Of a stretch of DNA of 37,214 nucleotides, positions 2,947-37,214 are shown one piece after another. Both the position numbers and the translations under genes were made by a program. The stretch lies in the IMG/VR virus record IMGVR_UViG_3300045110_000179, positions 1 to 37,214 of that record; one strand, given 5' to 3'. Under the pieces are notes generated by a model that was not told the DNA's origin, did not search any database, and saw only the letters and a program-made list of their open reading frames with translations. Position 1 is the first letter of the stretch; every line of letters starts with the position of its first letter. This stretch comes from a virus.

Positions 2947-3498
2947 TCACGGCTCGACGTTCAGCGCGCGCAGCTCGCGGTCGATCGCGTCAAGTGCGCG
3001 CCTGGCTGTGCCGGCGATGACGCCGTTGGTCTTGCCGGCGAGCAGCTGCGCCACGCGACCCGGAAGGTTGCGCTCGAACATCGCGACGGTCTCGGCATCG
3101 GGCTCGGCGAACTTCGCGACCTGCGCGCGTTCCTCGGCGAGTGCGGCGGCGCGCGGGACATCGGCGAGTTTCAGGCGCGGCGTTGGCTTGTCAGTTGCCA
3201 TGTCGGGATCCTCTGTGGGTTTCAGCCGGTACACCGGCGCTGTCGTGTTCTTCGGGCCGACGATGCGGCGTTCGACCGTGCCGGTGTGCAGCAGGCGCGA
3301 CAGCGCGCGCCGGACCGAGCCTTCGCTCAGGAACGTGGCGGTCATCAGCGCCGCGATGGTCTGCTCGCCGGACTCCAGCGCGCGCACGATGCGCCGGCGG
3401 TTCTGCTCGCCGATGATCGCGCCGGCTTCCATGCCGTGTTCGAGCGCGCGCTGGCGCAACGCGCCGAACCGTCCCGGAATTCTCGCCTGCGCCAACAT
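2947..3498 (-). CDS. Winged-helix DNA-binding protein
   Basis: 183 residues. Residues about 30-95 read as a winged helix-turn-helix: an RRRIVRALESGEQTIAALM helix pair, a recognition-helix-like SEGSVRRALSRLLHTG, then a wing ending in APVYRLKP. The C-terminal half is helical with no recognised domain. It is the first gene after the early terminator and heads the replication genes, so it may be a transcription regulator or an origin-binding initiator; the sequence cannot decide. The ATG at 3498 has an AAGGG ribosome site 6 nt upstream. Only about 24 bases separate the terminator T-run from this start, leaving little room for a promoter. Expression therefore probably depends on read-through or antitermination. 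Confidence 0.7.
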   Translation of the reverse strand: MLAQARIPGRFGALRQRALEHGMEAGAIIGEQNRRRIVRALESGEQTIAALMTATFLSEGSVRRALSRLLHTGTVERRIVGPKNTTAPVYRLKPTEDPDMATDKPTPRLKLADVPRAAALAEERAQVAKFAEPDAETVAMFERNLPGRVAQLLAGKTNGVIAGTARRALDAIDRELRALNVEP

Positions 3499-4440: not shown

Positions 4441-4872
4441 TCAATTTGCGCGGTGAAGTTGCGAGCCGTTGAGCTTGTCGGACAGCGCGCGCTCGGCTTC
4501 CGGCGTTGTCGCCGTGCCGGTCGCGACAATGCGGGCGAGTTGCGCCGGATTGGCGGTCTTGACGATCTCCGCGGAGACCTGCCCCGACGCCGCCGCCGCA
4601 ACCACATGATCGACGACGGCGCTTCTGGTCATCTTCTGCTGCAGGAACCCCCACGCCGCGCCGGCGAAGGCGGCCAGCACGCCGAAGATCGCGGTGCCGA
4701 CGACGAGGCTCAGGTTCGGATCGGTGAAGCCTTCGCGATTGAGCCAGCCGACCATTGCGCCGGTGATGATGCCGGCAAGCGCGATGATGCCGCTGCGAAC
4801 GAGGCTGTCCATGCCCGGCGAGCCGGTCGTGAACGGAAGAACGGGCGCGGGTGCGCCGGCGGGAGAGGTCAT
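4441..4872 (-). CDS. Two-transmembrane protein, holin-like
   Basis: 143 residues. Two hydrophobic helices at about 24-44 (SGIIALAGIITGAMVGWL) and 56-77 (LVVGTAIFGVLAAFAGAAWG) are separated by a short polar loop and followed by a soluble Ala/Val-rich tail. The layout resembles small putative phage holins of the Pam3-gp28 type often seen in alphaproteobacterial phages; this is recall, not a search result. The start overlaps the methyltransferase stop as ATGA. It lies in the early operon, far from the endolysin at 10235-10792, which is odd for a holin. An envelope-modifying role in lysogeny is the main alternative. Confidence 0.65.
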   Translation of the reverse strand: MTSPAGAPAPVLPFTTGSPGMDSLVRSGIIALAGIITGAMVGWLNREGFTDPNLSLVVGTAIFGVLAAFAGAAWGFLQQKMTRSAVVDHVVAAAASGQVSAEIVKTANPAQLARIVATGTATTPEAERALSDKLNGSQLHRAN

Positions 4873-5603
4873 GGGCTTGTCCTTTCACTGGGTTGGAACA
4901 GCGCACCGGGCGCCATCTTCTCGAACAGCGGAACGGGTGCGGGGTTGGCGAAACGCGCGGCATCGTCGAAGCGCGTGTAGCGGCGCTCGGTGCCGGACGG
5001 GAAAGGCCAGTGTGCGCGCGGCGCCTGTCCCTTGAAGAACACGAAGGCGGCATAGCAGCTCGCCGTCGAGAGATCGGGATCCCACGATCCCAGCTGCATC
5101 GACACGCGCTCGACGAACGGCATGATGCAGGTGAGCGGATGTTCGCTTTCGTAAAGCATCTTCTCGCGCCCCCCGCTTTCGAGAAACGCGATGCGGCAGA
5201 GCACGATCACGCCGCGGCGCGCGAGCTCCAGTCCACGCTCGATGAAATCGCCGGCGATCGCGAAGGGCGGATTGGTGACGATCCAGTCGCGGTCGTTGTA
5301 ACTTTTCGTGGCGCGCAGGAAATCGAGCAGCCAGCCGTGGCCGTAGTCGTAGATGTCGCTCGACATCACCTGTTCGCGGCCGAACACCTCGATCAGCGGC
5401 TCGGCAAAATGCCCCTCGCCGCAGGCGGGCTCCCAGATCGTGCGCGCCTGCGGATCCAGATCCTTGAGCCGGTATGCGATCGCGCGCGCGGCCCAGGGCG
5501 GCGTCGGGAAATAGTTGAGATTGCGGAACAGCGCCGCCTCGGGCGTGTCCTTGCGTACCTGCTTCGGCGCGCGTTGCTCCATCACGGCGGAGGACCGGTT
5601 CAT
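4869..5603 (-). CDS. DNA adenine-type methyltransferase
   Basis: 244 residues. This is a class I SAM-dependent DNA methyltransferase: motif I is EPACGEGHF (58-66), an acidic residue in SSDI (about 83) should hold the SAM ribose, and motif IV is NPPF (111-114), typical of N6-adenine enzymes. The upstream YFPTPPWAAR (31-40) is the usual lead-in of phage enzymes of this kind. There is no obvious separate specificity domain and no restriction endonuclease gene next to it, so it is an orphan enzyme, probably protecting phage DNA or marking host DNA. Both ends overlap neighbours by ATGA (5600-5603 and 4869-4872). Target sequence unknown. Confidence 0.85.
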   Translation of the reverse strand: MNRSSAVMEQRAPKQVRKDTPEAALFRNLNYFPTPPWAARAIAYRLKDLDPQARTIWEPACGEGHFAEPLIEVFGREQVMSSDIYDYGHGWLLDFLRATKSYNDRDWIVTNPPFAIAGDFIERGLELARRGVIVLCRIAFLESGGREKMLYESEHPLTCIMPFVERVSMQLGSWDPDLSTASCYAAFVFFKGQAPRAHWPFPSGTERRYTRFDDAARFANPAPVPLFEKMAPGALFQPSERTSP

Positions 5604-6510: not shown

Positions 6511-6770
6511 GCGGCCCTGCGCTTTCTCGCCACCGGCGCGCGCAGGCGTTTAAGGAAGGCGGCCAGCTCGGCGGCGCCGACCTCGCCCAGCGTCTTGTCG
6601 AACAGCTTGTCGGCCAGGTCCGGGTCGAATCGCCTGGTCTTGCCGTTGACGAGACGCGAGAGACAGCTCTTGTCTATCCCGGCGCGCAGCGAAAAGGCGC
6701 GCAGACTCTCGTTATTCCGCGCGAGATAGTCGGTCAGCTCGGCAAAGTGTCTCATATTTTGAGACGACAT
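6507..6770 (-). CDS. Cro-like helix-turn-helix repressor
   Basis: 87 residues. Residues about 10-60 form a helix-turn-helix of the lambda-repressor/Cro fold: FSLRAGIDKSCLSRLVNG is the turn and recognition helix. A basic tail (ARKRRAA) ends the protein. It is divergent from the CI-like gene and is the first gene of the early operon, the position of cro. The 17-bp operator at 6749-6765 lies within its first codons, so autoregulation is expected. The start may be 6770 or the internal ATG at 6755; neither has a good ribosome site. Confidence 0.8.
   Translation of the reverse strand: MSSQNMRHFAELTDYLARNNESLRAFSLRAGIDKSCLSRLVNGKTRRFDPDLADKLFDKTLGEVGAAELAAFLKRLRAPVARKRRAA
6749..6765. promoter_or_regulatory. 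Operator 1 of lysogeny switch
   Basis: GTCTCATATTTTGAGAC, a perfect GTCTCA-N5-TGAGAC dyad overlapping the cro-like start. The same dyad recurs at 6864-6880 and, with a few changes, at 6806-6822 and 7523-7539, which identifies it as the binding site of the CI/Cro pair. Confidence 0.85.
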
Positions 6771-6771
6771 A

Positions 6772-6800
6772 TTGTGGCCCGTTTCAAAATTCGACTAGAT
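6772..6800 (+). promoter_or_regulatory. Candidate promoter for CI-like gene (PRM type)
   Basis: TTGTGG (6772-6777), 17-nt spacer, CTAGAT (6795-6800). The spacer holds a weak half operator (GTTTCAAAATTCGA, 6781-6794). Start of transcription would fall at about 6806, beside the next operator. Moderate match only. Confidence 0.45.
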
Positions 6801-6802
6801 GT

Positions 6803-6831
6803 TTCGTATCGAAATTTGAGACAGGCGTCAA
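6803..6831 (-). promoter_or_regulatory. Candidate early promoter for cro operon (PR type)
   Basis: On the minus strand TTGACG (6831-6826), a 17-nt spacer, then TACGAA (6808-6803). The operator at 6806-6822 sits in the spacer, where repressor would block polymerase. The -10 is poor but the placement is convincing. Confidence 0.5.
6806..6822. promoter_or_regulatory. Operator 2 of lysogeny switch
   Basis: GTATCGAAATTTGAGAC: right half exact, left half with two changes from GTCTCA-N5-TGAGAC. It lies between the -35 and -10 of the candidate PR promoter. Confidence 0.75.
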
Positions 6832-6863
6832 TCCATCTGTCCCACAATCTGTAGTGGTCTGCC

Positions 6864-6880
6864 GTCTCATAAAATGAGAC
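6864..6880. promoter_or_regulatory. Operator 3 of lysogeny switch
   Basis: GTCTCATAAAATGAGAC, a perfect copy of the dyad in the leader of the CI-like gene. It overlaps the most upstream possible ATG (6874), which argues for a later start. Confidence 0.85.
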
Positions 6881-6900
6881 AGTGGGGCATGGACGAGGCG

Positions 6901-12675: not shown

Positions 12676-12759
12676 TCATTGGGGGACGTTGATTTCGAGA
12701 GAGGTGACCGGCGGCGTGCCGTAGATCGTCGCTGACATCGCCTTTGATAGCCCGCGCAT
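12676..12759 (-). CDS. Possible 27-residue coupled peptide
   Basis: ATG at 12759 overlaps the stop of the large fibre gene as TGATG; the frame runs 27 codons (MRGLSKAMSATIYGTPPVTS then LEINVPQ). A second in-frame Met at residue 8 gives a 20-residue form. Coupling suggests it may be translated. The rest of 12627-12758 holds only the ribosome site of the next gene. Confidence 0.35.
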   Translation of the reverse strand: MRGLSKAMSATIYGTPPVTSLEINVPQ

Positions 12760-15700
12760 CAGTTGAGAGCCTTTACCGTGAATAAGATCAGCGTGCCGTC
12801 GGCAGCCGAGCTGGTGCCATCCTGGATCGTGGCCTTGATCGTAATCGTGGAGCTATCGGTCTCGGTTGCCGCCGTGTAATTGGTTCCGAGGTTCACCGGA
12901 GACACGGCGCCCTTGGTGCCTCCAGCGATGACGTTCTGGGTATTGCTTCCGGTTTTCAGCACCGCGATCCACATGCAGCTTACGGACCCGGTGGTAGAAA
13001 CGCCGGTGTCACTGATGACCTCCGATCCGAAATACAGTCTGCTCGTGACGGTGTTGGTATTCGCCGCGTGCAGATAGCAGGCTTCGATCCGGTAGTTGCG
13101 GCCCGCATTGTCGAGCGAGTTGGCCGGGAGCGAATAACTGTCGAGGATCTGCTCGCCGGTGCCCGTGGCCGTGGCGATGCTGGCCGTGATGCTGTGCTTC
13201 AACCCCGGCGTCGAGCAAGCCTCCGCGGCGTTGGAAAGGTTCGCACACGCTGCCTGCGAGAAATTCCCCGCGCCGTCCGACTTGATCGCGCCGGCCACAA
13301 GCTCGGCGCCGTGATAGGTGCTGAAGTGGCTGACATAGGCGTGGGCGCCGCCGATGGGGGCGGTGCCGACAAGGGCCTGGTTAACGCCGCCTGGCTTGAC
13401 CAGGATGCCATCGACGGTCACCGGCGCCGTGGTGCTGGCGGTGAGCAGCGTCACGCGGCAGAGCGGTGTTCCGGAACTGACGAAAGCGGAGTCGAACACC
13501 GCACCGTCGGTGATGTCGGCATGTGTGGGGTCGACGACAGTCGCGGAATGTGCCCCGTTCGCCGCAAGCGTGCCGTGGATCGAATGGCAATGCAGCATGA
13601 TCTTGTCGGGGGCAATGCCGAGTATAGCGCAGGTGAGTGCGATGCGGATCGTCGAACCGGACGGGTTGGAGGTTCCGGTGACCGGCGCGGCGCCGCATTC
13701 GTCGGCGTAGAGATAGTTCGTCGCGCTGCTTGTGGTCTCGCTGTCCTGCAACGTGAGGGTAGCGGACGGCACGACGTGCATTTGCGAATGCAGCTCGATG
13801 CCGCCGGGGCCGCCATACTGGCTAAGCACGAACGCGCCGGCGCTGTGCGTGAGTTGCACCTGGCCGATTGCATTGAGCTGATCGTCGCCGGGACACATCG
13901 TCGAATAGAGCAGCCGCGAATAGCCCGTGATGTCGTACTGCACGCTGTCATAGGAAAGATCGAGGAACCCGTTCTCGATCGTGAACGGCACCGGCAGGAT
14001 CGAGACGTCGTGGCCGCCATAGCAGGGCGCGCGCAAAACCTTGCCGTTGAAATCCACGGTCGCGTCGAACAGTCCGGGGGTGGGCCTGATCCGGCACCCG
14101 TAAGCTGGCGACGGGGGAGCCGTGATCGCCGTCTTGCCGGCTGCGCTGCCCGGAACGGCCGAACCGCAATCGGGGTTGGTGAGTGTGACTGTGGTCGCGG
14201 CCGTCGTGCGCTTGCCGCCCATCTGGTTGATGACCGTGCCATCCGACAGCACGGCGAAGACCGGAATGTCGGAGGTGGATGGTACGAAAATCGAGACGGC
14301 ATAAACGAACGGAAGGCCGTTCGCATGAGCCACGGCCGTGCTTCCGAACAGCGCGCGGCCGGTGACGTGGACCTGCGTTCCAGATTTCTTGGTGTAGGAA
14401 ATCCACTCATGTTCGACATACATGGTTCCCGGCGAAGGCGGCGCGATCGTGCCGCTTCCCGACAACGTCACATCGCCCGTCCCCGTGCCGAGCGCGTTGA
14501 TGTCCGACAGCGTGTAGTTTTGCGCAGCCTGGATGATTTCAAAGGGTGCGCCGACGCCGGCGCCGGTGCCGATGCCGAGGCCGCCGCTCTCGAAGCGCGC
14601 GCGTTCCGCGGTCGTGGTTGTGCCGGCTTCCGTGGTCGAGACGACGACATCGCCGCATTGCGCCGTGTCCGTCCAGCCCTCGCAGGCTTTCAGATCCACG
14701 ATCGCGCGGCTGTTCGGCGAGACCGCCGTCGCGCCATAGCCGCGACCGCCGATGTGAAAGAGCGACTCGTTGTTCTGCACCGCTGTCGGCTGGCCCAGCG
14801 TGCCGTCCGTGCGCACGCCGATTGTTCCCGGCGCCCCGCCATAGGAGTCGATCTCGTCGAACGCATTGCCGCCATCGCGGCCGACCAGGCGGCGCTGCAT
14901 GCCGGCGACTTCCGCCTGCGGCGGGATCAGGCCGCGGAAGGTGAACGTCCCGGTGTCTGTCAACTTAGCCGGTGCCGTCATGGTCACGGCGCAGCTGGGC
15001 GTGCAGGGCGCGGCCGTCAGCGCCTCGATCTCGGTGCTGTGGCGCAGATCCTTTCCGTTCGGCGGGATGATGGTCATGCCGACCACAAGCCCGGTCGTGT
15101 CGAACGTCGCGCCGGTTATCTGGTCGGATCCCGCGGTGATGCTTCCGGCAGTTCCGGCCTTGGCGCTGTCGGTGTTGTTGTTCGTGACGGGCGCATAGCC
15201 GCACTCGAACACGTTGGCCCCGCCCATGATGAGCGAGCGGGCCTGGTCCGTTTCGGCGTAGATGCAGCCGTTCGGGAAGGAATTGTTTCCGAGGAATGTC
15301 GGTCCCGACAGATGGCCGAGCAGGATGTCGCCGGTCGTGGCGTGCGATGCGTCGAGATTGAGGCACCCGTCGTCCACCTGAACGGAGACAAAATCGCCGT
15401 CGCTTACATCGGCGCCGAGGGTCGCGAAATGGACGCACCGCTGCGGCCCGGCGACGTTGTTGAGCTCCAATCCGATCCCCAGCTTGCCGAGCGCGCGGCC
15501 GGAAATGTCGACCGCTTCGTCCTCGCCGTCGATCCACATGCCGACCTGCGTCGGATCGTTGACCGTGCCGTCCGTGTCACCGCTGATCTGGTGCAGGCTC
15601 GGGTGCAGCGCGTTCCTGATGCGATATTGCACTTCGTGCCCGAACACCTGGGCGCCGTTCACGATGGCGCCGGCGTCCTTGTCCACCTCGCTGTCAGGCC

Positions 15701-17252
15701 CGCCGAACATCATGCCGGTGGCGAGATTGGCCGCGCGCAAGCCGCCGGCGCTGTTGCCGGCGACAAACCGTCCGCCGGGCGAGATAATCATGCAGCCGCC
15801 CTTGGGCGGATGGCAGGTCGTGCCATGCAGCGTGCCGGTGCTGTTGGCGAAGGGGATCGAGACCCCGCTTCCTGAGCCGGTGACGTTCGCGCAGCCCACA
15901 AAGGAGCCGCAGTCGATGACAGCGAAGTGGCTGATATGATCGACGTGCAGAACCGCTGTTCCGTCCGTGATGCCGGCCACGCCCGTGATCGTCTGTCCGG
16001 GGGAAATATTCGCATCGTTGGCAAGGCCGCTGATGATGCCCTTGCCGGCGACGAACGTGCCCGTCGTCGTCGGCCCGGCAAAGGACGAACCGTTGAGGAC
16101 GATGTTCGATCCCGATTTCGTGACCGTCCATTTGCCCTGGCAGCCCTCGCGGATCGGCAGCGTGGTGATGAGAACGAGATCGCCGGTGTGGATGTCGACC
16201 AGCGAATGCTCTGTGCTCTGGATGGCGCAATGGCCGGTGCCGTCGTCGACGATGCCGGTGACCGTCCACCACTCGCTGTTGCTGTCGTTCCACGTATTTG
16301 CGCCGGTGCCGTCGACGACGTTCTTCAGGCCGCGCGTCGTGAACGGGAAGACGTTGATCCCGTTGTAGCGGCGCGAACCGTTGTTCGCGAACGCCGCCAG
16401 CCCGACATTGGCATCGCCCTCGATGACGTCGAACGTCGCATCGCCCGAGGTCGAGTTCTGCAGCCCGACGTCGTAGCCGTTGAATGTGTCGTTGCTGTCG
16501 TTGCAGCCGGTGACATCGCACACGAAGCCCGTGTCGGCATTCGTCTGCGCCGTGCCGCCCTGGCCCCAGAAATCCATTTCCGCGCGGATCGTTCCGAACG
16601 GCGCGACGGCAGCATAGGCGGCCGAGACCGCGGCGCAGTTGTGGTAGCCAGATCCTGCCGAGTGTTTCAGGCTCGCGCCTGCGCCGGTGTAGATCGTGCC
16701 GGGAAGGTTGGTGAGATCGCCGTCGCTGTTCTTGTTGCCGATCCATGCGAGTCCGCAATCGAGCGTGACATTCGAGGGCAAGGTGAGCGGTGTCGTCTGC
16801 TTGACGATGAGTCCGTCCGTCGTGGCGCCCGTCTTGTGCGAGGCAGTCACGGCGGCGAGAAGCGCATCCCGCTTTGCATCGAACGCCGTGCATCCCGCAG
16901 CGCCCGCGCCGGTGGTCTTCGAGCAGTCATAGACCGAGCCGGTGACAACGCCCGTTTCCTCGATCGTGGCGCGGAAATCCTGCTTCTGGAAATAGTTGTT
17001 CGCGCCGTCCTTGACGCAGAGCACGCCGTCGACGGTGCAGGTGCCGGCGATCTTCTTCCACAATCCGCCGCCATGATCGCCGGGACCCGCATAGCCATAG
17101 GTCGTGATGCTGTCGAAACCGCCCCATTGCTGTTGCGGATCGGCGAGGGTCGCGGTGTCGGAAATCGCGACGTTGTTGGAATGCGGCGAAGGCGCCGCGG
17201 CAGCGGCGAGGATCCACAGGGCGATCAGCCCGAACGAACGAAGCACGCGCAT
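12759..17252 (-). CDS. Giant tail fibre/spike with N-terminal signal peptide
   Basis: 1497 residues, the largest gene here. It begins with an apparent Sec signal peptide (basic MRVLR, hydrophobic FGLIALWILAAAAAP, about 1-22), very unusual for a tail protein. The body is Gly/Thr/Asn/Asp-rich with many short beta repeats, typical of beta-helical fibres. A polar loop region with Cys residues is spread through 60-560. The last ~120 residues (NYRIEACYLHA ... TLILFTVKALN) look like a compact receptor-binding tip. It follows the tail adaptor by 2 bases with a good AGAGG ribosome site. It is probably the main receptor-binding protein; an exported lysogenic surface protein is the alternative raised by the signal peptide. 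Confidence 0.75.
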   Translation of the reverse strand: MRVLRSFGLIALWILAAAAAPSPHSNNVAISDTATLADPQQQWGGFDSITTYGYAGPGDHGGGLWKKIAGTCTVDGVLCVKDGANNYFQKQDFRATIEETGVVTGSVYDCSKTTGAGAAGCTAFDAKRDALLAAVTASHKTGATTDGLIVKQTTPLTLPSNVTLDCGLAWIGNKNSDGDLTNLPGTIYTGAGASLKHSAGSGYHNCAAVSAAYAAVAPFGTIRAEMDFWGQGGTAQTNADTGFVCDVTGCNDSNDTFNGYDVGLQNSTSGDATFDVIEGDANVGLAAFANNGSRRYNGINVFPFTTRGLKNVVDGTGANTWNDSNSEWWTVTGIVDDGTGHCAIQSTEHSLVDIHTGDLVLITTLPIREGCQGKWTVTKSGSNIVLNGSSFAGPTTTGTFVAGKGIISGLANDANISPGQTITGVAGITDGTAVLHVDHISHFAVIDCGSFVGCANVTGSGSGVSIPFANSTGTLHGTTCHPPKGGCMIISPGGRFVAGNSAGGLRAANLATGMMFGGPDSEVDKDAGAIVNGAQVFGHEVQYRIRNALHPSLHQISGDTDGTVNDPTQVGMWIDGEDEAVDISGRALGKLGIGLELNNVAGPQRCVHFATLGADVSDGDFVSVQVDDGCLNLDASHATTGDILLGHLSGPTFLGNNSFPNGCIYAETDQARSLIMGGANVFECGYAPVTNNNTDSAKAGTAGSITAGSDQITGATFDTTGLVVGMTIIPPNGKDLRHSTEIEALTAAPCTPSCAVTMTAPAKLTDTGTFTFRGLIPPQAEVAGMQRRLVGRDGGNAFDEIDSYGGAPGTIGVRTDGTLGQPTAVQNNESLFHIGGRGYGATAVSPNSRAIVDLKACEGWTDTAQCGDVVVSTTEAGTTTTAERARFESGGLGIGTGAGVGAPFEIIQAAQNYTLSDINALGTGTGDVTLSGSGTIAPPSPGTMYVEHEWISYTKKSGTQVHVTGRALFGSTAVAHANGLPFVYAVSIFVPSTSDIPVFAVLSDGTVINQMGGKRTTAATTVTLTNPDCGSAVPGSAAGKTAITAPPSPAYGCRIRPTPGLFDATVDFNGKVLRAPCYGGHDVSILPVPFTIENGFLDLSYDSVQYDITGYSRLLYSTMCPGDDQLNAIGQVQLTHSAGAFVLSQYGGPGGIELHSQMHVVPSATLTLQDSETTSSATNYLYADECGAAPVTGTSNPSGSTIRIALTCAILGIAPDKIMLHCHSIHGTLAANGAHSATVVDPTHADITDGAVFDSAFVSSGTPLCRVTLLTASTTAPVTVDGILVKPGGVNQALVGTAPIGGAHAYVSHFSTYHGAELVAGAIKSDGAGNFSQAACANLSNAAEACSTPGLKHSITASIATATGTGEQILDSYSLPANSLDNAGRNYRIEACYLHAANTNTVTSRLYFGSEVISDTGVSTTGSVSCMWIAVLKTGSNTQNVIAGGTKGAVSPVNLGTNYTAATETDSSTITIKATIQDGTSSAADGTLILFTVKALN

Positions 17253-29780: not shown

Positions 29781-30698
29781 TTACGGGCCGGTGGTGTCAG
29801 CGCATTGGATGCGCAGGACCTTGTCCTCCTGCGTTCGCGTCGCGCCGAACATCTGGAACATGTACAGCGTCGGCACGAACTTCTTCTGCGGGTTCGGCGC
29901 CAAGTTGACGCTGAGAGAATCCCACGCGCCCAGATGGATGGCGCTCTTGGTCCACACCGGGCAGGAGCGGATGTTCGACGCCCAGGGCCATTCTTCGAGC
30001 ACGACGAACTCGAAGCCGTAGAACTTCTTCAGCCGGCCGTCGCCATCCAGCACCGGCTCGCCATAGTCGCGGTCGATGTACTTGGTGTCGTTCATCAGGT
30101 CGGATTCCTGCTGCGACGTGATGCCGACAAAGATCGGCTCGCGGCCGATCATCCAGCGTTTTTTGCGCGCCAGGCGGCGCGCTTCGATCAGCTTGGCGAC
30201 GTTGAGACCGACATTTCCGGACCCGCCATTGCCGACCGTGATGGCAATGTCGTTCGCCGACGCCGGATATACCGTCGTCGTCGCCGCACCCTTGCCGGTC
30301 TTGGCATCGGCGAAAAACGCCGGGATCAGGATGTCGGTGTCGATCGAGTTCTTCATCGCGATGTGCGCGGCCTGGTTGACCGGCGAAGTCTCGTCGACAA
30401 GGACTTTCAGCTCGTCGATCTTGGCGAAGGTCGTGCCCCAGTCTGCGGTGACGGGGAAGCACCAACGCTGGTCGCGGCTGATGTTGAAGTTCGGGGTATC
30501 GCCGTTGCGATCCTCGTTGCCGACACGGGCCTTTGCAGAACCGTACTGCTTGATGACCTCGGCGGACTCGCCGCGATAGCTGCCGCTGTAATCGACGGCC
30601 TGCATGAGATCCGACGGCATGCGCTGCAGAAGCAGTTCCTGCTTCTGTGTGAACATGGGCTGGTAGTGTTTGGGGATTTCGACTTCGGGTGCGTCCAC
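29781..30698 (-). CDS. Major capsid protein
   Basis: 305 residues from the GTG at 30698, preceded by AAGGAG 7 nt upstream, the strongest ribosome site in the late region, as expected for the most abundant protein. The sequence (HYQPMFTQKQELLLQRM near the start, LNVAKLIEARRLARKKRW, PIFVGITSQQESDLMND and the final RIQCADTTGP) is that of the BPP-1-type HK97-fold capsid group of podoviruses. It has its own transcription start region: a terminator, then the 30-bp repeat at 30870-30899, and a 171-base leader. No internal protease site is evident; the scaffold is a separate upstream gene. Confidence 0.85.
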   Translation of the reverse strand: MDAPEVEIPKHYQPMFTQKQELLLQRMPSDLMQAVDYSGSYRGESAEVIKQYGSAKARVGNEDRNGDTPNFNISRDQRWCFPVTADWGTTFAKIDELKVLVDETSPVNQAAHIAMKNSIDTDILIPAFFADAKTGKGAATTTVYPASANDIAITVGNGGSGNVGLNVAKLIEARRLARKKRWMIGREPIFVGITSQQESDLMNDTKYIDRDYGEPVLDGDGRLKKFYGFEFVVLEEWPWASNIRSCPVWTKSAIHLGAWDSLSVNLAPNPQKKFVPTLYMFQMFGATRTQEDKVLRIQCADTTGP

Positions 30699-30869
30699 GA
30701 CGCTCTCCTTCGCTTGGGTTTCTTGGACCTGTTGCGGAGGGGCTCCCCGTTTCGGGATCGCGCTTTGCGCGCGTCGCGGACCCGGCCTTATCCCTTGCGG
30801 GGATCACTCGGCCGGTCTCACCCGGCTTGCAGCGGAATCGTTTGCACGACCTGCCCGCGTGATTTGACA

Positions 30870-30899
30870 AACCGCTGTGGCGACCCGCGCGCTGTCAAG
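30870..30899 (-). promoter_or_regulatory. 30-bp late repeat, copy C (before capsid)
   Basis: Minus strand: CTTGACA, five variable bases, CGGGTCGCCACAGCGGTT. It lies 171 bases upstream of the capsid start and directly after the terminator at 30904-30932. TTGACA followed by 17 bases gives GCGGTT, a poor -10, so a phage-specific polymerase or activator is possible. The rest of 30699-30869 is leader with a GC hairpin. Confidence 0.65.
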
Positions 30900-30903
30900 G
30901 GGC

Positions 30904-30932
30904 AAAGAAAAAGGGCGGCCATCGAGCCGCCC
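30904..30932 (-). terminator. Intrinsic terminator after scaffold gene
   Basis: Minus strand GGGCGGC (30932-30926), loop of six, GCCGCCC (30919-30913), then TTTTTCTTT (30912-30904). A textbook rho-independent terminator 50 bases after the scaffold stop, ending the terminase-portal-scaffold transcript just before repeat C. Confidence 0.9.
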
Positions 30933-30982
30933 TCTCCGATCGCGTCGTCCGAGGACGCGATCTCGCGTTGCCCCGCCGGGAA

Positions 30983-31879
30983 CTAGCCGTGGATCAGCTT
31001 GTTGAGACGTTCCTCGCGCTCGACCGCCGCCTTGTGGCCGGGATTGGTCCTGTCGCCGGCGGCCTTGCGATGTTCGGGATCGCCGTTCAGCCGATCGAGC
31101 TCGGCCTTCGCGGCGGCCGGACCTTTGGCGAAGCCGGCATCGCCGGCGCCCTTGATCGTGTCCTCGCCCATCATCTTGCCGAGCTGGATCATGAACTTCG
31201 CCATTTCCTGGCCGCCCATCGTCACCGACGCCTGGTCGGCGAACTTCACCGGATCGACGCCGGCGAGCTTCGAGATATGCGTCAGCGCCTCCCACGCCGC
31301 CGTGCGCCGCGCCTCGAAATCCACGCCGTGTTCCTTGCGCAGATCGGTCTCGATGCGTGTCTTCTCGGCGGCGGTGTCGGCGGTCTGCTTCGCGATCTCG
31401 CCGAGGCGGGTCTCGACTTCGGCGTCGTAGATCGACTGGTGGAATTTCGCCGGCACGCGGCCCTGCACCAGGCGCTGGCGCAAACGATCTTCCGCCGCCT
31501 GGTCGTATTCGACGCCGTCGGGCATTTTCTTCGGCGTGATCTTGACGTCCTTGGGATCGCGCGCGACGCCGAGCTTGGCGCTGTCGAGCCATTTGTCGAA
31601 CGCCTCGTCGTTGGAGAGATCCGGCGCCGGCAGGCGATCGGCGCCGAGCAGCTTCTCCGCGTTGCGGTAGCTGTCGACGATCACGTTGGGGTCGGCGTAG
31701 TGGCTGCCGTCCTTTTTGTAGAAGCCGTTTTTCTCCGCGAAGTCGAGATTGTCCGGCGACAGCGATTTGAAAAATGTCTGCCGCGTCGCCGCATCGAGCG
31801 GGGTGTGCGTGGTCCCGCCATCGCCGCCTTTGCCGTCTCCGCCTTTGCCGTCGCCCGTACCTTCGCCTGCACCACTCAT
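30983..31879 (-). CDS. Capsid scaffold/assembly protein
   Basis: 298 residues, mostly helical and rich in Lys/Glu/Ala, without membrane parts or Cys. It opens with a flexible Gly/Asp-rich stretch (GAGEGTGDGKGGDGKGGDG), and Glu/Lys/Arg-rich helices follow (about 120-230). Size, charge and place between portal and capsid genes fit the T7 gp9-type scaffold that guides procapsid assembly and is then removed. ATGA overlap with the gene upstream, intrinsic terminator downstream. Confidence 0.75.
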   Translation of the reverse strand: MSGAGEGTGDGKGGDGKGGDGGTTHTPLDAATRQTFFKSLSPDNLDFAEKNGFYKKDGSHYADPNVIVDSYRNAEKLLGADRLPAPDLSNDEAFDKWLDSAKLGVARDPKDVKITPKKMPDGVEYDQAAEDRLRQRLVQGRVPAKFHQSIYDAEVETRLGEIAKQTADTAAEKTRIETDLRKEHGVDFEARRTAAWEALTHISKLAGVDPVKFADQASVTMGGQEMAKFMIQLGKMMGEDTIKGAGDAGFAKGPAAAKAELDRLNGDPEHRKAAGDRTNPGHKAAVEREERLNKLIHG

Positions 31880-32169
31880 TTGTCTGTCTCCGTTTCAAGG
31901 TGGTCGATGTCTTCGTTGGTCAGCTTCGCCATCGTGGCGATGTGGATCCACACTTCGCGGCGCGAGCCGAGGGCGTGGCTTTCGTTCGGGTCGCCCTGCG
32001 CATAGGTGGTGTGGAAGGCGCAGCATTTGAGCGCGATGTCGGCGAACACCAGCGGGAATTGCGCGACGGCCTGTTCGTACTGGGCGCGCAGATCGGGTCC
32101 GCGGCGCGGCCAGTAGCGCGCGATCCAGTCGAGCACGACGCCTTTGCTGTAGGAAACGAAACGCCTCAT
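31876..32169 (-). CDS. Bbp19-like small phage protein
   Basis: 97 residues with the pattern of the BPP-1 Bbp19 group: an FVSYSKGVVLDWIARYW helix, a VFADIALKCCAFHTTY core, then DPNESHALGSRREVWIHI. This group is regularly found between portal and scaffold genes in such podoviruses; its job is not known to me. Overlaps both neighbours by ATGA. Confidence 0.75.
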   Translation of the reverse strand: MRRFVSYSKGVVLDWIARYWPRRGPDLRAQYEQAVAQFPLVFADIALKCCAFHTTYAQGDPNESHALGSRREVWIHIATMAKLTNEDIDHLETETDK

Positions 32170-33833
32170 GCAGCCTGCTTGGGTTGCGGCCCGCGCATGG
32201 TCTGGATCGCAGTCGCGCCGGATTGCGCGGCGGCGGTCGCATCCTTCGCGATCGTCGCGCCTTGTTGCGCCGCAATCATGCGCTGCTGCTGCTGGCGCGC
32301 GGCGTCGGTGGTGTCGTCATCGTTGAGGATGCCGTCGACGTTGTAGCCCTCGGCGACGATCTGCATTTCCTTGTCGGAATTGATGCGCGCCGAAGCGGTC
32401 GGATCGCGCGCGAGGATCGGCGCGATGCTCTGCTCGAAGCGCAGCACGCCGGCGGCGCGCGCGGATTTCTGCGCCTGCGCCATCGGCGACACGACGTTGA
32501 CCTGCAAGGTGTGGCCGGCGAGATCGGGCGGCGGCGGCGAAATGATCGGCTGGCCCGAAGCATCGGTAACGCGCAGCAAGCGGCGATAACGCAGCATGAA
32601 GGCCGGGATCAGGAAATCGCCGTTGATGCGGCCAAGATACGGCGCCATCATCCGAAGCGTCGCCTCCTGGCGCTCCAGCGTTTCGATCGGCGCGAGCCCG
32701 GTGCGGTTCATCACCGGCAGAAGCGAGAAATAGAAATATTCCTTGATCGCGCTGCGCAGCGCCTCCGCCATCTCGACCGAGAACGGCGGGCTCCCCATTT
32801 CGTAGAGCGGCTTGACGAGCTGGTTGCCGGCGCGATCGAGCGCGCCATAAGTGACCTTGCCGGGATGGTCGCGGATGATCGGCGTCGTCTGCTCGCTGTA
32901 GGCGCCGAGCGAAGGACGCGCGGCGCGCTCGCCGGCTTCGAGGTTCGCCTTGGTCATCACGTTCGACGATTTCACGTCCGGCAAGCTGAGCTCGCCGGGG
33001 CACTCGCGGCCGTAGCGTTCTCCTTCGGCAACGCCCCAGCGAAAACACTGGAACGGCAGATCCAGAAACCCGCCAACCTTGATCTCATGGCAGGTGTCGA
33101 TCTCCATCGAGACCGACGCCACCGGCTTGCCGGACGGCCCGATGCGATCCTGCACATAGCTCGAATTCGGTCCGATATACTGCAGGAACTCGCGCTTGTC
33201 GCACTTCCCTGCCTTCAGATCGGCTTGCGTTTTTTCCGACAGCGCCTGCGCCGTGAACATCGTCGCGGCCTGCGCCGGCGTCATCATCCAGCGGCGATAG
33301 AGCGTGTCGACCGTGCCTTCGCCGTCGGTGTCGATGTACGACGTCGAGAGCGCGCGGCAACGGTCGATGAAGCCGGAATGATCGGCGCGCACTTCCGTGG
33401 TGAAGATCGCGGTGCCGAAACCGGCGCCGTCGAGATAGAACGCGAGACATTGCGCGTAGAAGTCGCCGAAGTTCGGGCCGAAGCTCCCCAGCACCTGCTT
33501 CGATGTACGGTCGAGCCATGCGCGGTTTGGGCCGAAACGGTTGCGATCCTCATCGAGCGTGCCGAGGCCGCCCCATTGGTCGGCGGGATTGGAGGCGAGG
33601 CCATAGAGACCGGCGCCGAGATTTTGCAGGCCCTTGATGCCGGAGCCGTCGAACACCTTGCTCATGCGCTTGGTGCCTTCGGAATTCGTATTGCCGCGCA
33701 GTTCGGTGCGCAGCGGGCGGATCACTTCCGCGATGTCCGCCATGTGGGAGTCCCACGTCGCGCGGTCGTTCTTGAGTTCCTCCGCCTTCTTGACGAAGTC
33801 CTTGCAGCTGTCGGCGTTCTTGCCCTCGTCCAC
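32166..33833 (-). CDS. Portal (head-to-tail connecting protein)
   Basis: 555 residues, podoviral portal of the head-tail connector family: DRATWDSHMADIAEVIRPLR near the N-terminus, KRMSKVFDGSGIKGLQNLGAGLYG (about 58-80), then long mixed helices, and an Ala/Gln-rich C-terminal helix (AARQQQQRMIAAQQGATIAK) as the crown/barrel. It forms the dodecameric vertex through which DNA enters and leaves. GTG start 2 bases after the preceding stop; no strong ribosome site, so coupling probably matters. Length agrees with the family. Confidence 0.88.
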   Translation of the reverse strand: MDEGKNADSCKDFVKKAEELKNDRATWDSHMADIAEVIRPLRTELRGNTNSEGTKRMSKVFDGSGIKGLQNLGAGLYGLASNPADQWGGLGTLDEDRNRFGPNRAWLDRTSKQVLGSFGPNFGDFYAQCLAFYLDGAGFGTAIFTTEVRADHSGFIDRCRALSTSYIDTDGEGTVDTLYRRWMMTPAQAATMFTAQALSEKTQADLKAGKCDKREFLQYIGPNSSYVQDRIGPSGKPVASVSMEIDTCHEIKVGGFLDLPFQCFRWGVAEGERYGRECPGELSLPDVKSSNVMTKANLEAGERAARPSLGAYSEQTTPIIRDHPGKVTYGALDRAGNQLVKPLYEMGSPPFSVEMAEALRSAIKEYFYFSLLPVMNRTGLAPIETLERQEATLRMMAPYLGRINGDFLIPAFMLRYRRLLRVTDASGQPIISPPPPDLAGHTLQVNVVSPMAQAQKSARAAGVLRFEQSIAPILARDPTASARINSDKEMQIVAEGYNVDGILNDDDTTDAARQQQQRMIAAQQGATIAKDATAAAQSGATAIQTMRGPQPKQAA

Positions 33834-33835
33834 GG

Positions 33836-34012
33836 TCAGCGTCCGGTGAGGACGGCGCGGCCGAGGGTCGGCGTGCCGGCGGTGTCGAGCACCGATGCCT
33901 GGAAGCCCGCCGCGGCGCGGCGCTGTTGCGCGACCGCATCGGCCGCGGCGTTCACCGAGCGGCTTGTCGGGTCATAGATCACTGGGGCGGGTTTCGGAAT
34001 GCTCCAGCACAT
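33836..34012 (-). CDS. Small late protein upstream of portal
   Basis: 58 residues from the ATG at 34012 (GGGAG ribosome site 7 nt upstream). It overlaps the preceding gene by 41 bases in another frame. A Pro-rich start (SIPKPAPVIYDPTS) is followed by an Ala-rich helix (VNAAADAVAQQRRAAAGFQ) and a tail ending GRAVLTGR. Short proteins with a similar Gly-Arg end occur beside portal genes of related phages; role unknown. A 211-residue version of this frame beginning at 34471 is a shadow. Confidence 0.6.
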   Translation of the reverse strand: MCWSIPKPAPVIYDPTSRSVNAAADAVAQQRRAAAGFQASVLDTAGTPTLGRAVLTGR

Positions 34013-34508
34013 CAGGCTTCTCCCAGTCGCTTCGCCGCCAGGCGCAGAGCACATAGGGCTCGCGCCGACGGCCGTAATCCGGCAACAGCGTTTCCTCGAT
34101 CGCACCGCAGGCGCGCAGGAAGCGGCGCGAATCGGCGTGCGCGGCCAGCGCGCGTGCCTCCATGCGCGAGATCCCGGTGGCGAGAATTTGCGGCGCGGTG
34201 TCGCGGCGTATGTGGCGCACCAGCGCGCGCGCGAGCAGCGGAAAATCCGGCGTCGCGAACATCGCCGCCTCGGCCAGCCAGGGGGTCGCGTCGGAGGACC
34301 ATACGGCCACAACCGCTGTGGCGACCCGAGACGTGTCAAGCCCCGCGACGTAGCAGACGCGCATGCGCTCGCGGTTGGCGGCGAAGCCGGCGGCGAGCAG
34401 ATCGGGATCGCGCTCCGGCCGCACGTCCAGGATCTCGCGCGCGTCCATTTCGCGCATGTTGCGCGCGACATGCAGGATGTCCCCCGCCCACGGCTCGCGG
34501 ATCCACAT
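33972..34508 (-). CDS. gp13/GNAT-fold-like late protein
   Basis: 178 residues resembling the T7 gp13 group (DUF2833), which has an acetyltransferase-like fold: MREMDAREILDVRPERDPDLLAAG at the start, VCYVAGLDTSRVATAVVAVW as the central strand pair, TPWLAEAAMFATPDFPLLARALVRHI, then a Cys-containing LRACGAIEETLLPDYG. Whether it acetylates anything is unknown; in T7 gp13 is needed for virion assembly. It starts one base after the terL stop. The 30-bp late repeat (copy B) lies inside its coding sequence. Confidence 0.7.
   Translation of the reverse strand: MWIREPWAGDILHVARNMREMDAREILDVRPERDPDLLAAGFAANRERMRVCYVAGLDTSRVATAVVAVWSSDATPWLAEAAMFATPDFPLLARALVRHIRRDTAPQILATGISRMEARALAAHADSRRFLRACGAIEETLLPDYGRRREPYVLCAWRRSDWEKPDVLEHSETRPSDL
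34311..34340 (-). promoter_or_regulatory. 30-bp late repeat, copy B (inside gp13-like gene)
   Basis: Same 25 fixed bases as copies A and C; only the five spacer bases differ. Its codons give Leu-Asp-Thr-Ser-Arg-Val-Ala-Thr-Ala-Val in the gp13-like protein. It lies about 300 bases before the small gene at 34012 and 478 before the portal start. Confidence 0.6.
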
Positions 34509-36086
34509 TCAGAAATCCCGCAGCGGATCGTATTGCTCGACCTCGCCGCCGCGGCGCGAGCGTTCCTTCGCGCGACGGCTGCGCAGATGCTTGAAATCGC
34601 CGGAACCGATCACGGCGTATTGCAGCGCGTCGTGCGGGTGGGTCCACGGGTTGTCGACCGGCGATAGTGGCGAGCGTTTGTCGCCCTGGCGGTTCTCCAA
34701 AATCTCGAAGCAGTATTTCGACATGAAGCCCTTGCGCAGCACCTTGCAGCGCGGCGACAGGCGGAACATCGGCCGGCCGCTATCGAGTTCGTTGAGCAGT
34801 TGCGCCACGCCCATGCGGCGCGGCCCGAAATCGTTTGTCGGCACTTCGCCGCAATAGGTGCGGTCGAGCTCGGCGGCATCGAGAAACGCATCGAGCCACA
34901 CGACCTTGTCGACCATGTCGTTCGGATTGTCGGTCGCCGGGTCGGCGTAGATGCGCATGTTGCGCAGGTTGGGGAATTCGTCGGCGACAAACTGGGAAAA
35001 TTTCTCGCCGAACTTGTCGGCGCTGCAGCGATGTTCCGGAATGCATTCCGCGAGGACGTCGAAGCCGCCCATCAAACGGCGCTGCGCGAACACGGCGCAC
35101 GCATCGCGACCGCCATCGACGCCGACGATCAGGTCGCGCGTCGGATCGTATTGGACGTCGATCGGCGCGGTGTGAAGATCGTCGTTGAATTCCGGATAGA
35201 CCGGCTCGCCACTGCGGCTGTAGCCGGGCTTGTTGTGAACGAAGCGGTTGATCCACCACGGATCGGCGTTTTTCTTCATCAGGTTGGCGTAGTAGCCGGG
35301 CCGCAGGTTCGGAAGATTTTCCGCGCCGGGATCGAGCCCGCCGGGCTGCACGAAGTTCTTCCAGCCTGGGATCGGTTTCTCGATGAAGTTTTTGTAGAGG
35401 TGGTTGTCCTCGTCCGGCGCATTGTAGTCGGTGAACAGCTTGGCGTATTTGTCGACCTCGTCGCCCCAGTTCTCCGGCCGCTGCTCGCGCGAGGGATAGC
35501 GCGACAGGCGCGGCGTCATGAAGATCGTGAACAGTTCCTCCGGCACCGAATCACCGGCGTTGACGAAACAGTTGGTGAGCTGCAGTCCGTCGCAGAATTG
35601 GCGCACGTTGTGGTCGCCGACCGCGACAAAGATCACCTCCCAGTCGAGTTCGGTGCCATCCTGCAAAGCCCAGCGAATCCGCGCGCGACCGGGCTCGCCC
35701 GACCCTCCGCCGCGCCACTCGCCAAGGTCGCGCGGAAAGTTCTCGAACCAGGACGAAAGCGTGTTAAGCTCTAGGTTCCTGTAAGTGTCGCGAATTACAC
35801 CCGTCCGTGCATATCGAACGCCATCGACCGGCGAAGGTGGCACGGCAATCGAGCAGACCAGACCTTTGACGAAACCCGCCGTCGTCTTGCCGGATCCCCA
35901 CGGCCCCATGATTCCGCTCGTAAGCGCGGAGCTGAACACGAAGCTGCGCGCCACCGGGCCGGACGGAATCCATTTCAGACCTTCGCCGACAGAGTGCTGC
36001 GCCGCCGGCTTCGGCATCGGCTCAACGAGCATCGCGACTTCGCGATCGGAAAGTGGCGTGCCGGTCTGATCGGCGTCTTCGCTCAT
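34509..36086 (-). CDS. terL: Terminase large subunit
   Basis: 525 residues, the DNA-packaging motor. The ATPase domain has Walker A GPWGSGKTT (61-69) and the strand NCFVNAGDSVPEE (172-184) followed by MTPRLSRYPS in the Walker B place. The nuclease domain of RNase H fold shows Asp324 (VGVDGG), Asp382 (YADPA) and Asp486 (HPHDALQY). Length is normal. ATG with a GGGG-rich region upstream; the next gene starts immediately after its stop. The Walker B strand lacks the usual Asn-Glu pair (Asn176-Ala177 here), an oddity to note. It works with the small subunit encoded 327 bases upstream. Confidence 0.9.
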   Translation of the reverse strand: MSEDADQTGTPLSDREVAMLVEPMPKPAAQHSVGEGLKWIPSGPVARSFVFSSALTSGIMGPWGSGKTTAGFVKGLVCSIAVPPSPVDGVRYARTGVIRDTYRNLELNTLSSWFENFPRDLGEWRGGGSGEPGRARIRWALQDGTELDWEVIFVAVGDHNVRQFCDGLQLTNCFVNAGDSVPEELFTIFMTPRLSRYPSREQRPENWGDEVDKYAKLFTDYNAPDEDNHLYKNFIEKPIPGWKNFVQPGGLDPGAENLPNLRPGYYANLMKKNADPWWINRFVHNKPGYSRSGEPVYPEFNDDLHTAPIDVQYDPTRDLIVGVDGGRDACAVFAQRRLMGGFDVLAECIPEHRCSADKFGEKFSQFVADEFPNLRNMRIYADPATDNPNDMVDKVVWLDAFLDAAELDRTYCGEVPTNDFGPRRMGVAQLLNELDSGRPMFRLSPRCKVLRKGFMSKYCFEILENRQGDKRSPLSPVDNPWTHPHDALQYAVIGSGDFKHLRSRRAKERSRRGGEVEQYDPLRDF

Positions 36087-36413
36087 ACCCCGACCCCTTG
36101 GTGATGAATTTGAATTCCCGCGCCCGTCTCAACCTCTGAGCCATGAAGCGCAGCGAGGCGATGGCGCGAAAATCGCGATGCATCCCGATGCATGGGGCGG
36201 TGGTTTTTCGCGATCGACCCTCCCCCCCCATCGCGCGCGCGGGCCGGTGGCCGGTCCGAATTCGGGGGGGTGGGGGTCGCGGGACTGGTCGACCACGGCC
36301 GCCCAGCCTGCGGATTTTCGATCCGTGGCCGTAACCGCGCGAAAGCCTGCTTTCCCGCCATTCCCGGCGCATCGTGCGACTTGAACCGTGCGACTTGATC
36401 GCCAGTAGAAATG
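36087..36413. other. Non-coding stretch between terS and terL
   Basis: 327 bases without a convincing gene. It contains two direct copies of CGTGCGACTTGA (36373-36384, 36387-36398), the reverse complement of the attP arm-like repeat; an operator-like GTCTCAACCTCTGAGCC (36126-36142); two ATGCAT palindromes near 36180; C-run 36217-36229 facing G-run 36264-36276; and a nested hairpin CCACGG/CCGTGG (about 36292-36327). A regulatory or packaging region is likely; which is unknown. Confidence 0.5.
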
Positions 36414-36971
36414 CTAAGCCGTTGTTTCATCTTCACTTTCCTCGGGAGGCGCGAGACGCGCGATCTCGCCGCCGGCGTGGGGGTCGAAGCCCTCGGCGAT
36501 CTCGGCGGCGAGCTGGCCGGCAAGCAGGTCCATGATCGCTTGCGGGCCGATGGCGGCACCGCCGCCGGGCATCGGCACCGAGACGTTGAACGTCGCCACC
36601 TTGCCCGACACCGCGACCGCCAGCGGCTGTTTGCTGTACAGGTACGGCATCACATCGGCGCGCACCTTGCGCTGGAATTCCGCGGCTTCGAGCAGATCGC
36701 AACCGAGCATCCGGCGCAGGCTTTCCAGCGGGATCGTGAGCAGGCGCGCGCTCGCGAGCAGCTGGTCACCGGCGATCTGCTCGAACAGCATCAGGCGCTG
36801 CCTGGTGGCGATGTTCTTGGCGCCAGGCGGCCGACCTTTGCCGAACCTCCGCGCGATCGCGGCCTCGTCGGCCTGCACGACCGGCGACTCCATCGCCAGC
36901 AGGTCGCCCGCGATCCGCGGAGCCGTCCCGCCTCCCGGTGAATCCCCCCTGATTTCGTCGTCGGCGGCCAT
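36414..36971 (-). CDS. terS: Probable terminase small subunit
   Basis: 185 residues, first late gene and upstream of terL, the usual place of terS. After a variable N-terminus comes a basic region FGKGRPPGAKNIATRQRLM (about 43-61) with helix content, then Leu-rich helices (LFEQIAGDQLLASARLLTIPLESLRRML) that could oligomerise, and a C-terminal acidic tail. The DNA-binding HTH is weak by eye. The ATG at 36971 has no ribosome site and lies a few bases past a hairpin terminator; a Met at residue 27 is an alternative start. Its transcript probably begins at repeat copy A. Confidence 0.7.
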   Translation of the reverse strand: MAADDEIRGDSPGGGTAPRIAGDLLAMESPVVQADEAAIARRFGKGRPPGAKNIATRQRLMLFEQIAGDQLLASARLLTIPLESLRRMLGCDLLEAAEFQRKVRADVMPYLYSKQPLAVAVSGKVATFNVSVPMPGGGAAIGPQAIMDLLAGQLAAEIAEGFDPHAGGEIARLAPPEESEDETTA

Positions 36972-36977
36972 CGGCGC

Positions 36978-37006
36978 AAAAAGCCGGAATATCCGGCCCT
37001 TTTTTT
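36978..37006. terminator. Bidirectional hairpin terminator before terS
   Basis: GCCGGA (36983-36988), ATA loop, TCCGGC (36992-36997). On the plus strand it is followed by seven T residues (37000-37006); on the minus strand by five (36982-36978). It lies between repeat A and the terS start, so on the late strand it acts as an attenuator or ends transcription from the early side. Confidence 0.7.
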
Positions 37007-37023
37007 ATTGCCACGGCTCACCG

Positions 37024-37053
37024 AACCGCTGTGGCGACCCGCGCGATGTCAAG
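37024..37053 (-). promoter_or_regulatory. 30-bp late repeat, copy A (before terS)
   Basis: Minus strand CTTGACA-N5-CGGGTCGCCACAGCGGTT, 52 bases before the terS start. With copies B and C all 25 fixed bases are identical, so the element is under selection and is a likely promoter or regulator site for late genes. Confidence 0.65.
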
Positions 37054-37091
37054 CCTTCCGGCATCAGGAGGCGAATTCGCGCAGCGTTTGC

Positions 37092-37174
37092 GGGACACCG
37101 GGACACCGGGCGGGACACCTAAACCTATATATATCAATAGGTTATATAGTAGTGTCCCGGTGTCCCGGTGTCCC
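37092..37174. repeat. Inverted array of GGGACACC iterons with AT-rich centre
   Basis: Left arm: GGGACACC at 37092-37099, 37100-37107 and 37112-37119. Right arm: the reverse complement GGTGTCCC at 37159-37166 and 37167-37174 plus GTGTCCC at 37152-37158. Between them a 32-bp AT-rich centre holds a second dyad AACCTAT (37122-37128) / ATAGGTT (37137-37143) with TATA-like runs. Iterons around an AT-rich core suggest a replication origin or a strong regulator site. No gene in 36972-37214. Confidence 0.75.
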
Positions 37175-37214
37175 GCGCCCATTCCACGTAAGCGCGCGCG
37201 CGTGGGCATGAGCG

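Follow-up and report, generated by a model that had tools for sequence, protein, structure and literature searches.

What is the role of a 30-base element that occurs three times, in one orientation, before or within the packaging, portal and capsid genes of a phage? To our knowledge, late-gene switching in temperate T7-like podophages of Alphaproteobacteria is poorly worked out, and the element presents a specific and testable switch, with start sites predicted and with candidates for both the binding block and the early regulator.

The element and the genome that carries it

The window, by which we mean the whole stretch of 37,214 nucleotides that was analysed, is the entire virus record and represents a nearly complete 37-kb podophage. 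The phage is called temperate because its plus strand carries genes for an integrase and for a cI-like repressor (a helix-turn-helix protein). The minus strand contains, in this order, the early genes, a Toprim primase, a DUF927-like helicase/primase, terS, terL, a gene of 178 codons, and the portal, scaffold, capsid and tail genes. The label DUF927 is our own, as the family matches were to phage primases, and the names terS, terL, scaffold and helicase derive in part from gene position and from resemblance to relatives. Since the genes of related prophages in Rhodobacteraceae run from primase and helicase through terL, the 178-codon gene, portal and capsid to tail, the two ends of the window are placed next to each other between the helicase gene and terS. 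Judged by this synteny, the record is circularly permuted and cut between these two genes (positions 1 and 37214). The truncated helicase is short by roughly 100 residues, and about 0.3-0.4 kb of the genome is therefore missing. The genes and the three copies of the element are located as follows.

29781..30698, minus strand: major capsid protein gene (phrog_3437 major head protein, E 3.8e-43)
30870..30899, minus strand: element copy 3, N5 = GCGCG, exact match, with position and spacing as in the TTGAC boxes of the relatives
30983..31879, minus strand: probable scaffold gene (phrog_3742, function not given), named from its position and from homologs before the capsid gene in relatives
32166..33833, minus strand: portal (head-tail connector) gene (phrog_332, E 1.4e-80)
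33972..34508, minus strand: 178-codon gene containing copy 2, with homologs between terL and portal in relatives and no family match
34311..34340, minus strand: element copy 2, N5 = CGTCT, exact match, about 480 nt upstream of the portal gene
34509-36086, minus strand: terL
36414..36971, minus strand: probable terS, from its position before terL, with no PHROG or Pfam match
37024..37053, minus strand: element copy 1, N5 = TCGCG, exact match, flanked by an ori-like inverted repeat and by terS

A scan of the whole window with the 30-base pattern CTTGACA-N5-CGGGTCGCCACAGCGGTT gave exactly three matches without any mismatch, all three on the minus strand, which confirms the description in an earlier note on this DNA of 25 fixed bases and a free five-base spacer. 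The fixed parts are CTTGACA and, after the N5, the invariant 18-mer, which extends over the remaining spacer bases and through the -10 position. No match was obtained in 100 shuffles of the window, even when three mismatches were allowed. The number of exact matches expected from base composition is 1.8e-10, and for any spaced 25-base word shaped like the element about 2.5e-5 pairs are expected. The next-best site in the window has eight mismatches, with nothing between it and the exact copies, and matches with at least eight mismatches are equally frequent with permuted control patterns. Because the N5 differs between the copies, a recent copy-and-paste event does not account for 25 other bases being identical, while constraint does. 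The element has the same orientation as the late genes and there are no partial copies, which favours late promoters. It was also considered as a hairpin RNA, and this was rejected since the folding of the three 30-mers was not better than that of shuffled sequences.

All three copies contain a -35 box of the TTGACA type (CTTGACA). A TATAAT-like -10 box is absent at 16-18 nt downstream, where GCGGTT is found at N17 instead, and a promoter scan did not detect the element. Most sigma70 promoters have an A at -11, which GCGGTT lacks. The earlier note was thus correct in stating that the conserved part is not a sigma70 -10 box.

The capsid promoter and its leader RNA

Copy 3 is located in the gap between the scaffold and capsid genes, where the following features are arranged in the direction of transcription.

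30908..30937, minus strand: intrinsic terminator between the scaffold gene and copy 3, with a 13-bp stem and a T-rich tail
30893-30898, minus strand: TTGACA of copy 3, aligned with the -35 boxes of the relatives
30870-30875, minus strand: GCGGTT of copy 3, in the -10 position
30735..30859, minus strand: conserved leader of the capsid transcript, a structured RNA with twin bulged hairpins (covariance model R1)

The terminator (-26.9 kcal/mol, z -3.8) is followed by TTTTTCTTT, and copy 3 lies directly 3' of it, as had been claimed for the capsid copy, with its TTGACA 200 nt upstream of the capsid start. In the related prophages in Rhodobacteraceae, the scaffold-capsid gap contains CTTGAC[AT] or a close form about 200 nt upstream of the capsid start, and this form is almost absent from the rest of the fetched region. 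In four of these (L115, L116, L119 and L122), the -35 box is placed immediately 3' of the T-run of a terminator.

The covariance model R1, built from eleven loci with the window left out, matched a single site in the window with 30.2 bits (E 1.8e-4), which begins 10 nt 3' of GCGGTT, the last bases of copy 3. The leader was found in the window and in the relatives L114-L122, L046, L201, L230, L040 and L096. It consists of two mirrored hairpins with a three-base bulge, xGG-GCA-ACCC...GGGU-CCx and GGGU-CCGG...CCGG-GCR-ACCC. Covariation supports these pairs, as changes on both sides were observed in 7 of the 17, and 97% of the cells are paired, as compared to at most 62% when slid. Of 50 capsid upstream regions, 13 contain the core GGRCAAVCC, with an expectation of 0.012 per region, and the leader had no match in Rfam. 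This RNA appears to be widespread and undescribed.

A TTGACA-like box (at least 5/6) is located at -36 to -43 from the first base of the leader in 12 of 12 leader loci, the window included. The shuffle control gave a mean of 0.63 and a maximum of 5, although the relatives are mutually non-independent and the significance is therefore overstated. The distance from the -35 box to the leader is 36-37 nt in the relatives, and once 43 nt. The TTGACA in the window is at -39, so that its spacing exceeds that of most relatives by 2-3 nt. A -35 box would stand in this range if the first base of the leader is the transcript start. For copy 3, the start site is predicted at about 30859-30863, where the leader begins. 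Taken together, the match to the leader model and the spacing of the box suggest that TTGACA is a -35 box and that GCGGTT occupies the -10 position. Copy 3 is thus very probably the promoter of the capsid gene.

In the capsid promoters of the relatives, the spacer varies and the -10 box is degenerate (e.g. GATGAA, GATCAA and GCTTAC). Degenerate -10 boxes are also general among Alphaproteobacterial promoters, and most of the sigma70 promoters analysed there lack the T at -7 (PMC8407463). Copy 3 resembles the capsid promoters of the Rhodobacteraceae prophages (L114-L122) in the upstream terminator, present in several of them, in the CTTGAC -35 box about 200 nt before the capsid gene and in the leader RNA downstream. 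However, these promoters occur in a single copy per prophage, with a variable spacer and often with GATGAA as the -10 box. The promoter and the leader form a module before the capsid gene that is conserved across distant phages and may control capsid expression, the leader possibly by translational control or as an antiterminator RNA similar to the put RNA of HK022 (PMC9378689).

The copies upstream of terS and portal, and the element in other genomes

The copies had been described as preceding terS, the portal region and the capsid gene. This order stands, but copy 2 is not intergenic, as it is placed inside the gene between terL and portal. There it encodes LDTSRVATAVV, within a protein that can be aligned with its homologs in the relatives. 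For copy 1, a start site is predicted near 37016 by analogy with copy 3, and a hairpin follows downstream.

36978..37002, minus strand: terminator-like hairpin with an 11-bp stem and T5 (z -2.4), terminator-like on the plus strand too

This hairpin lies between copy 1 and terS and begins about 15 nt past the predicted start, while no terminator was seen just downstream of copies 2 and 3. The layout of a terminator followed by a promoter, described earlier for the capsid copy, is true of copy 3 only. Neither copy 1 nor copy 2 has a counterpart in the relatives or a leader RNA behind it. The terminator, the position of the -35 box and the leader RNA conserved in relatives argue strongly for a late promoter at copy 3, and from their identity with it we infer that copies 1 and 2 act as promoters too.

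Upstream of copy 1, between the helicase gene and terS, there is an ori-like structure at 37090-37176, in which GGGACACC units form a perfect inverted repeat of 21 nt on the two sides of an AT-rich centre of 45 nt. Several of the related prophages have comparable tandem and inverted repeats at the same place, such as CTACAACG and CTACGACG.

The 18-mer had no matches in other IMG/VR contigs, a 16-base version gave 17 single and unrelated matches in other viruses, and the near-full pattern was absent from 84,980 prokaryote genomes. Among the loci screened, no relative shared the 18-mer or had a repeated element at equivalent places, and the Rhodobacteraceae prophages have no copies before terS or portal. 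Searches with single proteins identified no close relatives in collections that may omit records very near the window, and the closest portal protein was about 36% identical. The element is thus known from one genome, and constraint across species cannot be measured from a single carrier. The earlier note had named relatives without the elements at the same places as evidence against its reading. Relatives do lack the 18-mer, and also copies 1 and 2, but they keep the promoter position of copy 3.

A candidate late switch and its alternatives

The balance tips slightly towards the three elements being late promoters that are used by a host sigma70-type polymerase together with a phage-encoded, sequence-specific activator acting over the spacer and -10 region. 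The host polymerase would read the element through CTTGACA as a consensus -35 box, with the next five bases free. The predicted activator would bind the block CGGGTCGCCACAGCGGTT and allow the polymerase to start only late, whereby the packaging, portal and capsid genes would be switched on together. The poor -10 sequence, GCGGTT, and the invariant spacer point to such an activator. Moreover, 18 bases of the spacer and -10 region are fixed in three places, and sigma70 alone needs no such fixity, which suggests a second sequence-specific protein. The earlier note had proposed a phage activator or an alternative polymerase. The former is made plausible by the invariant spacer, while the latter is not supported, as neither an RNA polymerase gene nor a sigma factor gene was identified among the proteins scanned for PHROG and Pfam families, in a genome of which only the short segment in the helicase region is missing.

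The main rival, which we consider unlikely, is that an antiterminator of the Q or AlpA type loads at the 18-mer. Transcription would then start constitutively and stop at early terminators, to be released late, once the antiterminator has boarded the polymerase at the promoters. The invariant block does occupy a putative regulator site between the -35 and -10 positions, which is where lambda Q and the AlpA of Pseudomonas bind (PMC7969949). The lambda promoter pR' is likewise a late promoter with the site of a phage protein inside the spacer, but lambda has one such promoter while the window has three copies, one of them inside a gene. The AlpA-controlled promoters of Pseudomonas aeruginosa are similar in the putative site, GGGACG-N5-GGTA as compared to GGGTCG-N7-GGTT in the element, and in having a terminator near the start. 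In the AlpA target PA0807, this terminator begins 26 bp after the start (PMC7969949), which resembles the hairpin after copy 1. However, the resemblance between the sites was spotted post hoc and differs in spacing and in the offset from the -10 box, which in the window is also fixed, so that it is a lead rather than a match. Furthermore, a downstream terminator is present at copy 1 only, a usable -10 box would still be required, and no homolog of Q or AlpA was identified by family matches among the proteins.

It is improbable that the 18-mer is bound by a repressor, of the lysogeny or stoperator type, that keeps the late promoters silent or halts elongation in the lysogen. The phage is temperate, and the stoperators of mycobacteriophage L5 are asymmetric, lie in one orientation and have an end that resembles CTTGACA, its reverse complement TGTCAAG also ending the L5 site. 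Mycobacteriophage stoperators are described as asymmetric sites that are scattered over the genome (PMC9283540). However, the window has three copies only, with no other site of fewer than eight mismatches, and the immunity region (6755-6889), in which a repressor has to act, contains none of them. A stoperator was therefore rejected. The poor -10 sequence would also be left unexplained.

That TTGACA-N17-GCGGTT is recognised by an alternative sigma factor of the host has a low probability. The -10-like part does not vary and differs from TATAAT, and the phage has no sigma factor gene among the proteins scanned, but the fixed block reaches 12 bases into the spacer, which is normally not read by sigma factors, and the pattern is absent from the prokaryote genomes searched. 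We find it similarly hard to believe that the element is no transcription signal at all, such as a recombination or packaging site or a mobile repeat, and that the TTGACA at copy 3 is coincidental. The position of copy 2 inside a gene and the lack of copies 1 and 2 in relatives are in line with this, but the orientation matches the genes, a consensus -35 box is placed at an ancestral promoter position, and a recently copied repeat would have carried the five free bases along. A promoter for a single-subunit phage RNA polymerase of the T7 type, likewise a long, invariant element repeated in a few copies before late structural genes, is nearly excluded, since the cognate polymerase gene was not found among the proteins scanned and the missing 0.3-0.4 kb or so leaves little room for it, the element has a free five-base gap and a sigma70-like -35 box, and in the relatives this place is taken by an ordinary TTGAC box.

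Returning to a promoter with a phage regulator, we tentatively suggest that an ancestral single capsid promoter was expanded into a late regulon of three sites. It would have gained a fixed 18-base spacer and -10 block for a new phage regulator, either an activator or an AlpA/Q-like antiterminator, with one site inside a coding gene and a capsid transcript that opens with the twin bulged-hairpin RNA at its 5' end. A candidate for the regulator is encoded in the early region.

2947..3459, minus strand: protein of 170 amino acids with a winged-helix N-terminus (Pfam HTH_5, 22.7 bits against a cut-off of 22)

This protein also has a weak match to the transcriptional regulator family phrog_2030. 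Its choice is a guess based on position, and its link to the element is speculation.

Two further genes on the minus strand were observed. The early region encodes a phage DNA methyltransferase (4869-5603; phrog_799, E 3.8e-47). A protein of 1497 amino acids (12759-17252), without a PHROG or Pfam match, is encoded next to the tail genes and is possibly a large tail fibre.
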